DNA of 64,000 nucleotides. Origin: Clostridiales bacterium. GTDB taxonomy: Bacteria > Bacillota > Clostridia > Christensenellales > Christensenellaceae. Numbering within the stretch: the stretch's first letter is position 1; every line of letters begins with the position of its first letter. Below, in pieces: positions 54,146 through 59,939 of this stretch. A model generated the notes under the pieces. It saw only the letters and a program-made list of their open reading frames with translations, made no database searches and was not told where the DNA came from. The position numbers and the translations under genes were made by a program. Where the stretch lies: assembly GCA_015056045.1 (NCBI GenBank), contig SVGZ01000012.1, positions 1 to 64,000 on the forward strand. Reading direction: 5' to 3'.

Positions 54146-54349
54146 TTACATTTCGCCGAAATATTCGTTCAGTCTTGCAACGAGGATATCCGCATCGATA
54201 CCGTGAACAGCACAAGCTTCACCGATGTTTTCCATTGCAGAAGACGGACAGCCGATGCAGAACATGCCGTGTTCAAAGAAGATGGGTGCGCAGTTGATAT
54301 CTCTTTCGATTACTGCTGTGATCATTGTGTCTTTCGTGATTTTTGCCAT
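54146..54349 (-). CDS. DUF1858 small redox-disulfide protein
   Basis: 67 residues. The core FEHGMFCIGCPSSAMENIGEAC has the CIGC pair, and the end DADILVARLNEYF fits DUF1858, the hybrid-cluster-protein-associated redox disulfide domain. Likely a small thiol-redox or metal-binding protein of anaerobes. GAGAGGG before the ATG. Stand-alone here, without hcp. Confidence 0.9.
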   Translation of the reverse strand: MAKITKDTMITAVIERDINCAPIFFEHGMFCIGCPSSAMENIGEACAVHGIDADILVARLNEYFGEM

Positions 54350-54451: not shown

Positions 54452-54480
54452 TTGACAAGAACAGATAAATACAGTATACT
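54452..54480 (+). promoter_or_regulatory. Consensus promoter of the CorC/HlyC leader
   Basis: TTGACA (54452-54457), 17-base spacer, TATACT (54475-54480). Start expected near 54487, about 190 bases before the coding start. Confidence 0.85.
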
Positions 54481-54495
54481 CATTTTTATATAGAG

Positions 54496-54608
54496 CTATG
54501 TACTCTGTATGCGGGCTTTTTGCCCGATCTATAGAAAGAGGAAAAAATGGACGATACAGAAGGCGCGGACGAATACTTAAGCGCTAAAAATATGTGAATA
54601 CAGCATAG
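54496..54608 (+). promoter_or_regulatory. Antiterminator and competing early hairpin in the CorC/HlyC leader
   Basis: CTATG (54496-54500) and CTGTAT (54505-54510) can pair with ATACAG (54598-54603) and CATAG (54604-54608), using the base of the terminator. Alternatively TCTGTAT (54504-54510) pairs with ATACAGA (54554-54560), inside codons 3-5 of the small ORF. A CGGGC/GCCCG stem (54512-54526 region) lies between. The three folds are mutually exclusive as in attenuators. Confidence 0.65.
54547..54597 (+). CDS. Acidic 16-residue leader peptide before a CorC/HlyC-type gene
   Basis: MDDTEGADEYLSAKNM, with AGAGG six bases before the ATG. Five of the first nine residues are Asp or Glu. The stop codon adjoins the 3' arm of the antiterminator. 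Acidic nascent chains are known to destabilise ribosomes when Mg2+ is low (the MgtL principle in enterobacteria), and the downstream gene belongs to a family that includes Mg2+ transporters. The peptide may thus sense Mg2+. This is inference; translation has not been shown. Confidence 0.6.
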   Translation: MDDTEGADEYLSAKNM

Positions 54609-54645
54609 TCTCTGCAGGAGAGTTCGGCAGGGGTTATGTTTTTTT
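54604..54645 (+). terminator. Attenuator terminator in the CorC/HlyC leader
   Basis: CATAGTCTCTGC (54604-54615) pairs along all 12 positions (three G-U) with GCAGGGGTTATG (54627-54638), then TTTTTTT. No complete gene precedes it, so it must regulate the gene after it. Confidence 0.88.
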
Positions 54646-54677
54646 GTCTTTACGCATCGTCCAAAAGGAGGTATATC

Positions 54678-56051
54678 TTGTCACCTGACCCTTTAGGGCC
54701 CCAATTATTACTGCAAGGTGCTCTCATCTTAGTTAATGCATTTTTTGCCGGTACAGAGCTCGCCGTGCTTTCCGTCAGCGAAGGTTCACTCCGCAAACAG
54801 GCAGAAGCAGGCGATAAAACAAGCGCAAAGCTTTTAAAGATCGCAGAAGACTCTTCGGATTTCTTATCGACGATCCAGGTTTGCATCACGCTTGCCGGTT
54901 TCCTCGGTTCCGCTTTTGCTGCGGATAACTTCGCCAGCCGAATCGTTGATTGGCTTGTCGAAACCTGCGGCGTAACGGCGATCCCCGAGGCAACGCTCAA
55001 TACCATTGCCGTCATCGTTGTAACGATCATTTTGTCGTTCTTCACGCTGATTTTGGGCGAACTTGTTCCCAAACGTGTGGCTATGCACGCTCCCGAAAAA
55101 TGGGCAAGGTTTGCCTGCGGCGTTGTCAACACCATGAACAAGCTCTTAAAGCCCATCATCTGGCTGCTTTCCAAGACGACAAACGGCGTACTCCGCCTTA
55201 TGGGCATCAACCCGGATGAAGATACGGAAAATGTTTCCGAATCACAGATCCGCATGATGGTAGACATCGGCGAAGAAAAAGGCGCGATCGAATCCACAGA
55301 ACGCGACCTCATTGAAAATATTTTTGAATTCAACAACGTCACCGCCTTTGATGCGATGATCCACCGTACGGATATGGTCGTCATCTATGAAGAAGACACG
55401 GACGAAGAAATTTTGAAAACCATCAAGGAAAGCGGTCTTTCCCGTTTCCCTGTCTGCGGCGAAGATGTAGACGATATTCTGGGTATCCTCCGCACAAGAG
55501 AATACCTTATCAACTCCCTCGCAGAAAACCCGAAACCGCTGAGAGATATTATCGCACCTGCCTATTTCGTTCCCGAAACGGTCAAGGCAGACGTTCTCTT
55601 CCGCGATATGCAGGCAAAGAAAGTCCAGTTTGCGATCGTCCTCGATGAATTCGGCGGAACATCCGGTCTTGTCACGATGGAAGACCTCGTTGAAGAAGTT
55701 TTCGGCAATATTTATGACGAATTCGACCTTCATGAAGATCTGCCTTTAGAAAAGATCGGCGATAACCTTTGGCGTGCAGCCGGTACACTCGAGCTTGAAA
55801 CCCTGTTTGAAGAGCTTGAAATGCCCTATGAGGAAAGCGAAGATTATTCGACACTCGGCGGCCTTGTTTTCAGCCAGTTCTCCGTAATTCCTGCGGACGG
55901 TACAAACCCCGAAACAGATGTTATGGGTCTGCACATCCGCGTTGAAGAACTCCGCGAACACCGCATCGAATGGACGACGATCTCCAAGCTTCCCGATCCG
56001 GATGAGGAAAAGGATGCACGAGAGCGTTTGGATGGGCTTTTAAACAAATAA
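54678..56051 (+). CDS. CNNM/CorC-HlyC family membrane protein (putative Mg2+ transport)
   Basis: 457 residues from the TTG at 54678, which has GGAGG six bases upstream; an ATG at 54636 lies inside the terminator stem and is unlikely. N-terminal DUF21 (CNNM) membrane domain of about four helices with LVNAFFAGTELAVLSVSEGSLR and LGELVPKRVAMHAPEKWA. A CBS pair follows (TVKADVLFRDMQAKKVQFAIVLDEFGG region), then a CorC_HlyC C-terminal domain. Relatives export or exchange Mg2+; old names call them hemolysins. Expression should depend on the leader upstream. Confidence 0.92.
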   Translation: MSPDPLGPQLLLQGALILVNAFFAGTELAVLSVSEGSLRKQAEAGDKTSAKLLKIAEDSSDFLSTIQVCITLAGFLGSAFAADNFASRIVDWLVETCGVTAIPEATLNTIAVIVVTIILSFFTLILGELVPKRVAMHAPEKWARFACGVVNTMNKLLKPIIWLLSKTTNGVLRLMGINPDEDTENVSESQIRMMVDIGEEKGAIESTERDLIENIFEFNNVTAFDAMIHRTDMVVIYEEDTDEEILKTIKESGLSRFPVCGEDVDDILGILRTREYLINSLAENPKPLRDIIAPAYFVPETVKADVLFRDMQAKKVQFAIVLDEFGGTSGLVTMEDLVEEVFGNIYDEFDLHEDLPLEKIGDNLWRAAGTLELETLFEELEMPYEESEDYSTLGGLVFSQFSVIPADGTNPETDVMGLHIRVEELREHRIEWTTISKLPDPDEEKDARERLDGLLNK

Positions 56052-56354: not shown

Positions 56355-57533
56355 TTATTGCTGTTCCGATTTTTTCAGTTTGTTGCTGTACACGATGAAA
56401 AGCACCATCGCCATGAAGGCAAGCCCTGCTAAGAGGTAAAATGCCCAATCAACACCAAAACTGCCTGCGAGCTTGGAAGCAGGATCGGAGAAGATGAGTC
56501 CGCCTAAACTGCCGCCAAAGAACATCAGGCTCGTTGCCGTTCCTGAATTGCCCGGATATGCCAGTGCGGTCTGGCTGACCATGACGGAATACAGCGGCGC
56601 AAAGGAAAGGCTGTACAATGCACAGAATACAACTGCCCAGACGGGATCTTTGACGATCGTGACCATTATGAGCGAAAGGGCGCTGATGGAAAGCGTGATC
56701 ACACCAAGCGCTTTTGTGCTCTTTTTGACATAGCCAATGAGGAAACGGGCGATCGCATACATTGCACCATGCAGAGAAAGGGCAAGCGAACCAAGCTCGA
56801 TCGCACTGAATTTCTCTTCAAAAAGGATACTCAGGAAAGGCGCATAGATATTATCCGTTGCGCAATAGAACAGCAGCGAAAGAGAACCGACGACCAATGC
56901 CGGGTCACGCAGAAGCGCAAACATTTCTTTCATGTTCTTTGCTGTTTTGACGCCTTCGGGCTTCGGAATATCGGAAAGCGAAACCATTGCCAGCGGAACG
57001 ATCGTTAAAATCGCAATACCGCAAAGCGCGATTCGCCATGTGAGACCGAGGCTTCCGGCCATGGTCATGAGCAGGATCGGGCCGATCATCGTCGCAATAC
57101 TGATGACGACGTGCATCAGGCTGATGTAGCGCTGTGCTTTATCCGGGTATAGATCTGCCAAAGCCGGCGTTACTGCACCGTTGGAAGCCGTATTGCCAAT
57201 GCCCATGATGATCGTACCGATGACGTAAACTTCGACCGTCGGTGCCCATGCGATCAAAAGGGAACCGATAACCGCAATGATCATCGAAAGAATGATGACG
57301 AGCTTTTTACCCAAAAGATCCGAAACACGCCCGACGATCAGCGGAACAACAACGCCTGCCAGATGGTTTGCCGTCAGCATACCGCCGAGTTCGCCTGTGG
57401 AAAGGCCAAAACTTGCAGCGATATCAAGAATAAAGATATTTGTGATACTGCCCTTGAAGCCCATAACGAAGCTTCTCATCATCGCAGCCGGCACGACAAG
57501 CTTTTTAGAAAGCTTTCTTTCTTTTTTACTCAT
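56355..57533 (-). CDS. MFS transporter, tandem copy 1
   Basis: 392 residues, twelve membrane helices. The loop 2-3 motif reads GRVSDLLGKK, and the N-terminus has ASFGLSTGELGGMLTANHLAG, a segment repeated in the neighbouring copies. YPDKAQRYISLMHVVISIATMIGPIL is the conserved helix 5 region. Major facilitator superfamily uptake or efflux carrier; substrate unknown. Its start overlaps the end of copy 2 by eight bases. Last transporter of the array. Confidence 0.92.
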   Translation of the reverse strand: MSKKERKLSKKLVVPAAMMRSFVMGFKGSITNIFILDIAASFGLSTGELGGMLTANHLAGVVVPLIVGRVSDLLGKKLVIILSMIIAVIGSLLIAWAPTVEVYVIGTIIMGIGNTASNGAVTPALADLYPDKAQRYISLMHVVISIATMIGPILLMTMAGSLGLTWRIALCGIAILTIVPLAMVSLSDIPKPEGVKTAKNMKEMFALLRDPALVVGSLSLLFYCATDNIYAPFLSILFEEKFSAIELGSLALSLHGAMYAIARFLIGYVKKSTKALGVITLSISALSLIMVTIVKDPVWAVVFCALYSLSFAPLYSVMVSQTALAYPGNSGTATSLMFFGGSLGGLIFSDPASKLAGSFGVDWAFYLLAGLAFMAMVLFIVYSNKLKKSEQQ

Positions 57534-58722
57534 GAATCTCTTCCTTTAACTGTTTCTTTTTAAGAGCATTGCAATATGCCCAATAAAGTGCCATGGAAAT
57601 CACAGAAGTTACCGCAAGAACGATGAAAAGTGTATCTGCGCCGTAATTGCCGACGACTTTCGAAGCCGGAGTCGTAATAAGGAAGCAGCCTAAACCACCG
57701 CCAACAAACATCAGGCTCGTTGCCGTTGCGGAGTTGCCCGGATAGCTGACCGCTGCATTGCTGACAACGAGCGGATAAACCGGAGCAAAGGATAAGCTGT
57801 ATAAAGTACAGAAGATAAGTGCCAAAGTCGGGTTCGGTGCGATCGCCGCAAGGACAAGGAATACCGCTGCCGCTGCAAGCGAAACGATGCCAAGCGTCTT
57901 ATGTCCTTTTTTCATAAAGCCGACGAGAAATCTTGCAAGCGCATACATCGCGCTGTTGAGCGTCAAAGCCAACGCACCGGCTTCAACTGCACCGAAGTTT
58001 TCCGTATAGAAAATGCTGACGAAGTTTGCATAGGTATTATCCGTCGCGCAATAGACGATCATGAGCAGTGCGCCAAGAAGCAGCGTCGGATCAGAAAGCA
58101 GGTGCATAACTTCTTTGAAGCCTCTTGCCGTTTTGCCTTCCGATCTGTTTTCGATTTTGATAAAGAAAGTCGAAATATAGGGGATAAGCATGACAAGAAC
58201 GGAGATCAGCTTGATCGCACGCCAATCGAGGTTCAGGCGGACATTGAGTGCGCTGATGATCAGCGGGCTGACGATCCCCGAAACAGAACCGAATACCTGC
58301 ATCCAGCTGATATAGCGCGTTGCACGATCCGGATAGGTATCTGCGAGTGCCGGCGTCAATATGCTGTTTTCCGCATTGCCGCCAAAACCGCCGATGATCG
58401 TTCCCAAAACATACATCTCTACCGTTGGCGCCGTGATGATGATCGCCGAACCGATCAGGTTGACAAAGATCGAAGCGACGAGGACCCGTTTCTTTCCGAA
58501 AAGGTCTCCCAATCTGCCCGCAACAAAGGGCATGACGATCGATGCGACATAGTTCGCACTCAAAAGACCGCCCAGCTCACCCGTTGAAAGCCCAAAGCTT
58601 TCCGCAATGCTGAGGATCATGACGTGAGTCAGCGAACCAAAGAGACCACCGACGATCGAGCGGAAGAAAATGATCGGGAAAAGCCATTTCCTTGCCGCAG
58701 ATGTGTTCTGTCTTTTTTCCAT
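57526..58722 (-). CDS. MFS transporter, tandem copy 2
   Basis: 398 residues from the ATG at 58722 (AAGGATGG upstream). Twelve helices. AESFGLSTGELGGLLSANYVASIVMPFVAGRLGDLFGKKR, quoted in parts, contains the same TELGG-GRxxDxxGKK signature as its neighbours; YPDRATRYISWMQVFGSVSG is helix 5. Clearly paralogous to copy 1. Substrate unknown. Confidence 0.92.
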   Translation of the reverse strand: MEKRQNTSAARKWLFPIIFFRSIVGGLFGSLTHVMILSIAESFGLSTGELGGLLSANYVASIVMPFVAGRLGDLFGKKRVLVASIFVNLIGSAIIITAPTVEMYVLGTIIGGFGGNAENSILTPALADTYPDRATRYISWMQVFGSVSGIVSPLIISALNVRLNLDWRAIKLISVLVMLIPYISTFFIKIENRSEGKTARGFKEVMHLLSDPTLLLGALLMIVYCATDNTYANFVSIFYTENFGAVEAGALALTLNSAMYALARFLVGFMKKGHKTLGIVSLAAAAVFLVLAAIAPNPTLALIFCTLYSLSFAPVYPLVVSNAAVSYPGNSATATSLMFVGGGLGCFLITTPASKVVGNYGADTLFIVLAVTSVISMALYWAYCNALKKKQLKEEIHE

Positions 58723-58793
58723 ATTCGGACCATCCTTTTTTCGGCTTGCAAAAGCCTTTATTAAACACAGCCAAAAGCTGCATTTTACACGAT

Positions 58794-59939
58794 TTATGCT
58801 TTTTGTTTTTTCCCCATCGCTTCGGAAATGATGTAGCATAACAGTGAAAAGACACCCGATACGATAAGCATGATCATGGCTGCGGTCATTCCGGCGCTTT
58901 CACCGACAAAGCCGACAGCCCAGGCCATAATGGCACAGCCAATGCCGGTGCCTGCCATTAAGAGTGAAGAAGCCTCTGCAGAATTTTCCGGGTAATCGCG
59001 CGCTGCCTGTGCGAGGTAGAGCGGATAAACCGGCGCTGCAAAGAAGCTGAAAATGGCACAGAAAATCAGGTCAATATCCGGATTCTGTATAAGGAGGATC
59101 ATCCCCAAAGAAGCTGCGGATATGGCAAGGCAAATGCGGATGACCGTCTTTTCGCCTTTTTTAATGAGCCCCGTAAGGAAACGGGATACCGCATACAAAG
59201 CGCCGTGCAGGGTCAGGGCAATGCTGCCATGCGTGGCGATATTTCTCTGATCGACAAAGAAGGCATCGACAAAGGAAGCATAGGTCGCATCCATTCCGCA
59301 ATAGAAAAGCATCGCAAAAGCAAGAATAATGAGCGAAAGCGTGATCTTTGCACGGGAATTGCTGCCCGTATTTGCCGGATCTGCGGAAGAATATTTCGGG
59401 ATACGGACAAAACAGATGAGCAGCATCGGAATAACCGCAAGAACGCTGACCATGAGGTACATCGGACGCCATGTTACGCCGATCGCCACAGCAATAAGCG
59501 GAACAAGCGTTTGTGCAACGCAGCCCGATGCTTCGATCCAGCTGATGTATCTGCCTGCTTTATCGGGGAAATTATCCGCAATGGCCGGCCCGTTGCTGCC
59601 GTAACCCGTCGCAATGCCAACCGCATTGATAAGAAGTCCTGCTGTATAGAAGCCGACCGTTTTTGCCGCGACCATCATCAGACCGCCAACGATATAAAGA
59701 ACAAGTCCGCCGACGATCATCTGTTTTTTGCCGAATTTATCTGCCGCACGCCCAAGAAGCAGCGGAATGATCATGCTCGGAAGCGCTTGCAGCATGACAA
59801 GAGTGCCGATTTCCGCAAGACCTAAACCAAAATCTTCTGCGATATAAAGATTATAGACCTGCGGTATCGTATAGAATGCCGTAAAAAAGAACTGTACAAG
59901 GAATGCCGAAACTAAGTGCATTCTTTTGGAATTTTTCAT
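58794..59939 (-). CDS. MFS transporter, tandem copy 3
   Basis: 381 residues, twelve helices. AEDFGLGLAEIGTLVMLQALPS and GRAADKFGKKQMIVGG at the front, FPDKAGRYISWIEASGCVAQTL at helix 5. More divergent from copies 1 and 2. Its start overlaps the stop of the frameshifted copy 4 by four bases, so it was once translationally coupled to it. Substrate unknown. Confidence 0.92.
   Translation of the reverse strand: MKNSKRMHLVSAFLVQFFFTAFYTIPQVYNLYIAEDFGLGLAEIGTLVMLQALPSMIIPLLLGRAADKFGKKQMIVGGLVLYIVGGLMMVAAKTVGFYTAGLLINAVGIATGYGSNGPAIADNFPDKAGRYISWIEASGCVAQTLVPLIAVAIGVTWRPMYLMVSVLAVIPMLLICFVRIPKYSSADPANTGSNSRAKITLSLIILAFAMLFYCGMDATYASFVDAFFVDQRNIATHGSIALTLHGALYAVSRFLTGLIKKGEKTVIRICLAISAASLGMILLIQNPDIDLIFCAIFSFFAAPVYPLYLAQAARDYPENSAEASSLLMAGTGIGCAIMAWAVGFVGESAGMTAAMIMLIVSGVFSLLCYIISEAMGKKQKA

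Follow-up and report, generated by a model that had tools for sequence, protein, structure and literature searches.

The window, the whole stretch of 64,000 nucleotides of Clostridial DNA analysed here, contains a gene for a protein of the CNNM-CBS-CorC_HlyC type (54678..56051, plus strand) that has a TTG start and encodes 457 aa (MSPDPLGP...). Its Shine-Dalgarno sequence, AAGGAGGT, lies at 54665..54672 (plus strand). A leader of approximately 190 nt separates the gene from a sigma-70/A type promoter, TTGACA-17-TATACT (54452..54480, plus strand; TATACT at 54475-54480), which matches the consensus at 11 of 12 positions. The leader has a folding z of -2.6 and contains a short upstream open reading frame (uORF), MDDTEGADEYLSAKNM, at 54547..54597 (plus strand), preceded by the Shine-Dalgarno sequence AGAGG (54537..54541, plus strand). 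The peptide is acidic at residues 2, 3, 5, 8 and 9 (D2 D3 E5 D8 E9). An intrinsic terminator (54604..54645, plus strand) begins 6 nt past the uORF stop. Its arms, CATAGTCTCTGC (54604-54615) and GCAGGGGTTATG (54627-54638), form a hairpin of 12 continuous pairs followed by T7. An earlier note, made from the sequence alone, had described the promoter, the leader of about 190 nt, the uORF with its AGAGG and the terminator with its T7, and all are confirmed in place. It also called the 12-pair terminator perfect; the pairs are unbroken, but the stem is perfect only if wobble is counted, as 3 of the 12 pairs are G-U. Divergent from the leader promoter is a gene for a small DUF1858 protein (window 54146-54349, minus strand). 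Three adjacent, mutually similar-looking ORFs at window 56355-59939 (minus strand) appear by eye to be major-facilitator transporter-like.

The CorC/HlyC-type gene that the same note placed downstream of the leader is indeed present. The protein contains the Pfam domains PF01595 (CNNM), PF00571 (CBS) and PF03471 (CorC_HlyC), and it has the architecture of the CNNM/CorB/MpfA exporters, a CNNM transmembrane domain with a CBS pair and CorC_HlyC. Among proteins of solved structure, the closest in sequence is archaeal CorB, a Mg2+ transporter (7m1t, E = 1e-42). From its family, the protein is predicted to be an MpfA/CorB-type exporter of Mg2+. CorC-family proteins give protection from high Mg2+, which induces them in Salmonella (PMC12421838). 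For an efflux-type gene family, induction at high Mg2+ would be the sensible sign of control.

The leader has no match among known RNA families. A search of Rfam 15 against the window leader, loose threshold included, gave no family match, and the leaders of 20 related loci gave none either; only tRNAs were found elsewhere. The M-box (RF00380) is absent from the window leader and is not detectable in the window's genome, and yybP-ykoY has no match in the window leader. The earlier observation that neither fold could be recognised is thus upheld, with all classes negative. A known riboswitch is rejected because there is no Rfam match in the window, the leader or the 20 related loci.

The acidic start of the peptide recurs at related genes. 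We compared 181 distinct CNNM/CorC loci, mostly from Clostridia, with CNNM homologues and their upstream DNA taken from named genomes and from the class and order to which the window genome belongs. A uORF was counted if it began with ATG behind a Shine-Dalgarno match and had two or more Asp or Glu among residues 2-6. Such uORFs are present at 45 of the 181 loci. Over 100 dinucleotide shuffles the mean is 6.2 and the maximum 12, and the reverse strand of the same loci has 3. Two unrelated transporter families of the same class (SSF, TrkH) have 2 in 59 loci, a difference with a Fisher p of 7e-5 when shared ancestry is ignored. Only about a quarter of CNNM loci carry such a leader. The leader set was curated by eye, with 4 leaders added and 6 candidates removed, and a few of its hairpins are weak. 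Among 43 leaders the peptide starts with MDD in 31, MED in 4 and MDE in 3. The starts include MDDTDG, MDDADGDAENN, MSDADSDAD, MEDADPSG and MDEADPD, as well as MDDEPGEAE, MDDSPLPER, MDDDPADVD, MDDYPADL and MDDSSDADN. The Asp codons are a mixture of GAC and GAT, and 32 different 9-mers occupy codons 2-4 of the 43 leaders, which argues for selection on the amino acids and not on the DNA. Between the window and a relative of the same genus (locus L002), D3 is GAT or GAC, and E5 (GAA) is replaced by D5 (GAC). Conservation of the uORF, on which the earlier note had made its proposal depend, therefore holds for the acidic start and not for the rest of the peptide, which diverges beyond approximately 10 residues. 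Named carriers of the leader include Lachnospiraceae and Acetobacterium bakii. On the CNNM tree the presence of the leader requires 10 changes, at least 5 of them on well-supported branches; the design therefore extends across deep lineages. A search of 118 genomes for a Shine-Dalgarno sequence followed by MDDxP gave 17 sites, mostly inside genes or at ordinary gene starts; among them are one CNNM uORF, one CNNM gene start and two sites just upstream of MgtE genes.

CNNM genes without a leader often start with acidic residues and proline themselves (MDDPLI, MEDPLI, MSPDPIW; examples are L024, with MDADPDPDGN..., L027, L006, L064, L123 and L212). At least two acidic residues in positions 2-7 are found in 47 of 138 leaderless CNNM proteins vs 4 of 43 with a leader (raw p = 0.0016). 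This either/or relationship between a leader and an acidic CNNM N-terminus is lost after phylogenetic pairing on the CNNM tree. The acidic/proline start of leaderless genes could render their own start Mg2+-sensitive; alternatively, the negative residues may belong to an outward-facing N-terminus.

The position of the uORF relative to the terminator is also constrained. Among the 39 distinct leaders with a clear hairpin, none has a uORF that ends 10 nt or more short of the hairpin, where shuffling the intervening DNA predicts 23.5 (p ~1e-20, uncorrected for relatedness). The stop codon is in the 5' arm or loop of the terminator in 22, the uORF reads through the whole hairpin in 10, and in the other 7, including the window (6 nt), it stops 0-9 nt before the hairpin. 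This reach to the terminator is seen across lineages with unrelated peptide ends, and the combination of uORF and terminator is far above chance across the relatives. The 10 uORFs that run through the terminator and the 22 that end inside its 5' arm or loop imply that completed translation should prevent termination, not promote it. A ribosome that finishes the uORF occupies or crosses the terminator, so early loss of the ribosome should permit termination. The window itself counts against this: its uORF ends 6 nt short of the hairpin, where a terminating ribosome would shield just the foot of the stem and for a short time.

Comparable uORFs are found at Mg2+ importer genes. Acidic-start uORFs occur at 7 of 51 corA loci (one-sided p = 0.05) and at 10 of 69 mgtE loci (one-sided p = 0.03), each against 2 of 59 control loci. 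Several importers have MgtL-like MDxDP starts (MDIDPYP, MDTDPYP, MDADPG, MDCDPGG, MDYDPLP), and Clostridial importer genes often have uORFs of this type, as corA does at L262, L265, L271 and L303 and mgtE at L225, L231, L238, L337, L249 and L351. The corA gene of the window's own genome (L281) has an MgtL-like MDxDP uORF, MDSDPLLCTISKQHIGTGALVVFSF, which begins MDSDPLLCTISK... (MDSDPLL...). The link to Mg2+ made in the earlier note is strengthened by these uORFs, that of corA in the same genome included. For most of the importer uORFs there is no convincing terminator that they overlap. Some (L225, L238, L271, L337) stop 13-23 nt ahead of the start of the importer gene, so control may act on translation initiation. 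The importer-gene uORFs thus support the Mg2+ theme; the Mg2+ dependence itself we infer.

On balance we favour the interpretation that the leader, in these gut-type Clostridia, is a translation-controlled transcription attenuator, with Mg2+ most likely sensed by way of how stable the translating ribosome is. Comparison of sequences across the loci shows three elements of it: a conserved acidic-start uORF, an obligatory reach to the terminator and an association with Mg2+ transporter genes. In E. coli, acidic residues in the first codons lead to destabilization and drop-off of the ribosome, and low Mg2+ aggravates the effect (PMC11282234, PMC8092293). This intrinsic ribosome destabilization (IRD) is used by the leader ORFs MgtL and MgtQ (PMC11282234, PMC8092293). 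IRD is demonstrated for E. coli and related bacteria, and we presume that acidic codons act likewise in Clostridia. A ribosome that starts the window uORF would have to begin with an acidic N-terminal stretch (MDD-T-E...), and low Mg2+ would make it prone to fall off by IRD, as in MgtL. After loss of the ribosome the downstream terminator would fold, and the CNNM gene would be off. Where Mg2+ is sufficient or high, the uORF would be translated to its end, and the ribosome would end on, or cross, the 5' arm of the terminator. The hairpin would then be blocked while RNA polymerase passes, and the putative Mg2+ exporter would be made.

The earlier note had proposed the opposite sign: early departure of the ribosome at low Mg2+ lets a 5' antiterminator form and turns the gene ON, whereas at high Mg2+ the uORF is finished and the terminator forms. 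The window does contain a possible antiterminator, whose 5' strand (54491..54501, plus strand) pairs with 54604-54613. The 11-pair duplex has an energy of about -12.8 kcal/mol. When the nascent RNA is folded as far as 54622, the duplex belongs to the minimum-energy structure; it is replaced once the 3' arm of the terminator is included. However, it has no counterpart in the same-genus relative L002, whose 5'UTR is only ~18 nt. Over 41 loci, pairing upstream of the uORF (mean 0.154) is not above that in shuffled sequences (0.138), and in 39 loci an antiterminator inside the uORF is no more frequent than chance. The antiterminator is thus real in the window and is rejected as a feature of the family. 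It could act there as an extra structure with the opposite sign. Most of the 41 leaders have a similar promoter immediately before them, and most of their 5'UTRs are short. Short 5'UTRs without a conserved antiterminator leave translation as the antiterminating event, and translation itself is probably the antiterminator. With 10 leaders whose uORFs run through the terminator and a gene family that points to efflux, we consider the sign proposed earlier very unlikely, and low Mg2+ as the ON state is not borne out.

The favoured attenuator might also respond to another signal. The acidic uORF would then gauge how stable ribosomes are in general, or how much capacity for translation there is (polyamines, antibiotics, ABC-F factors, the state of bL31), with Mg2+ as only one of several inputs. 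IRD does depend on bL31 and EttA besides Mg2+ (PMC11282234, PMC8092293), but comparable uORFs concentrate at genes for Mg2+ import and export, with no such clustering at SSF or TrkH transporter genes, and this makes a broader signal unlikely. The concentration of Asp codons at codons 2-3 would suit a classical amino-acid attenuator with charged tRNA-Asp (or tRNA-Glu) as its input. Asp and Glu are interchanged, however (MDD, MED, MDE; E5 in the window and D5 in L002), the controlled gene is not one of Asp or Glu metabolism, and there is no conserved alternative hairpin on which a stalled ribosome could act; such an attenuator is exceedingly improbable. It is also highly improbable that the uORF encodes a small functional protein or is a chance ORF and that the terminator does no more than hold expression at a low basal level. 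Sequence conservation limited to the acidic start would agree with this, but neither a functional peptide nor a chance ORF fits the enrichment, the codon changes and the way the uORF always extends to the terminator; a functional peptide would be expected to conserve its later residues.

Sensing of Mg2+ by ribosome destabilization induced by the nascent peptide is so far documented in enterobacteria, for importers. If the favoured attenuator is correct, such sensing would extend to Clostridia, with its sign reversed because the leader ORF lies over an intrinsic terminator. It would also explain the control of Mg2+ exporters that lack any known riboswitch, and it bears on why CorC-family proteins often start with acidic residues and proline. 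More tentatively, Mg2+ homeostasis in Clostridia may be two-sided and use drop-off of the ribosome as its sensor: MDD-type leaders over intrinsic terminators would turn CNNM exporters ON at high Mg2+, and MDxDP-type leaders with another downstream layout would do so for corA and mgtE importers at low Mg2+. Both kinds would work side by side in one cell, as in the genome of the window, and would take the place of metal riboswitches. No earlier description of these Clostridial leaders was found in the open literature, subscription papers being largely beyond the search.

Several known systems resemble the window leader in part. The M-box (RF00380) and yybP-ykoY likewise control metal transporter genes from the mRNA leader, but they are aptamer RNAs, and the window leader matches neither. 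For the conserved shift between antiterminator and terminator of a trp-type attenuator, antiterminator pairing does not exceed that of shuffled sequence upstream of the uORF (41 loci) or inside it (39 loci), and Asp and Glu interchange. The CorL leader of corA in enterobacteria also links a Mg2+ transporter to translation of a leader ORF (PMC11552253); it is Rho-dependent, serves an importer and has a weakly acidic peptide, and is relevant mainly to the corA uORF of the window genome (L281). In MgtQ, a uORF between mgtC and mgtB of Salmonella, Asp2 and Glu5 similarly tune a downstream Mg2+ transporter (PMC8092293), but MgtQ works through alternative hairpins at the mgtB ribosome-binding site, inversely to uORF translation and with no terminator. 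The N-terminal IRD sequence of E. coli CorC (YbeX) and the YoaL leader of MgpA agree with the window in that expression of CorC-family genes is suggested to rise at high Mg2+, by destabilization of the ribosome at early codons or by a leader peptide, and an IRD sequence within CorC itself is discussed as the reason for its induction by high Mg2+ (PMC12421838). Both are from Gammaproteobacteria; in YbeX the destabilizing codons are inside the gene itself, YoaL is an overlapping leader of unknown mechanism, and overlap with a terminator is not described for either (PMC12421838).

The closest parallel is MgtL, the leader of mgtA in Escherichia coli and Salmonella, which is likewise a short ORF with acidic first codons before a Mg2+ transporter gene, and in which drop-off of the ribosome is the proposed Mg2+ sensor, as proposed here (PMC11282234). 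The window uORF shares the short leader ORF before a Mg2+ transport gene, with a ribosome-binding site, a conserved coding start and predicted translation, and it shares destabilizing acidic/proline residues in the first codons. The alternative folds that expose a Rho-dependent terminator on completed translation have no equivalent, as there is no conserved alternative fold. MgtL serves an importer, has an EPDP motif and a Rho-dependent terminator, and completed translation turns the gene OFF. The leaders compared here have an MDD start, serve exporter-type CNNM genes and use an intrinsic terminator overlapped by the uORF, and completed translation is predicted to turn the gene ON. The design appears to be an undescribed counterpart of MgtL, the magnesium sensor of enterobacteria, and to work as its mirror image.
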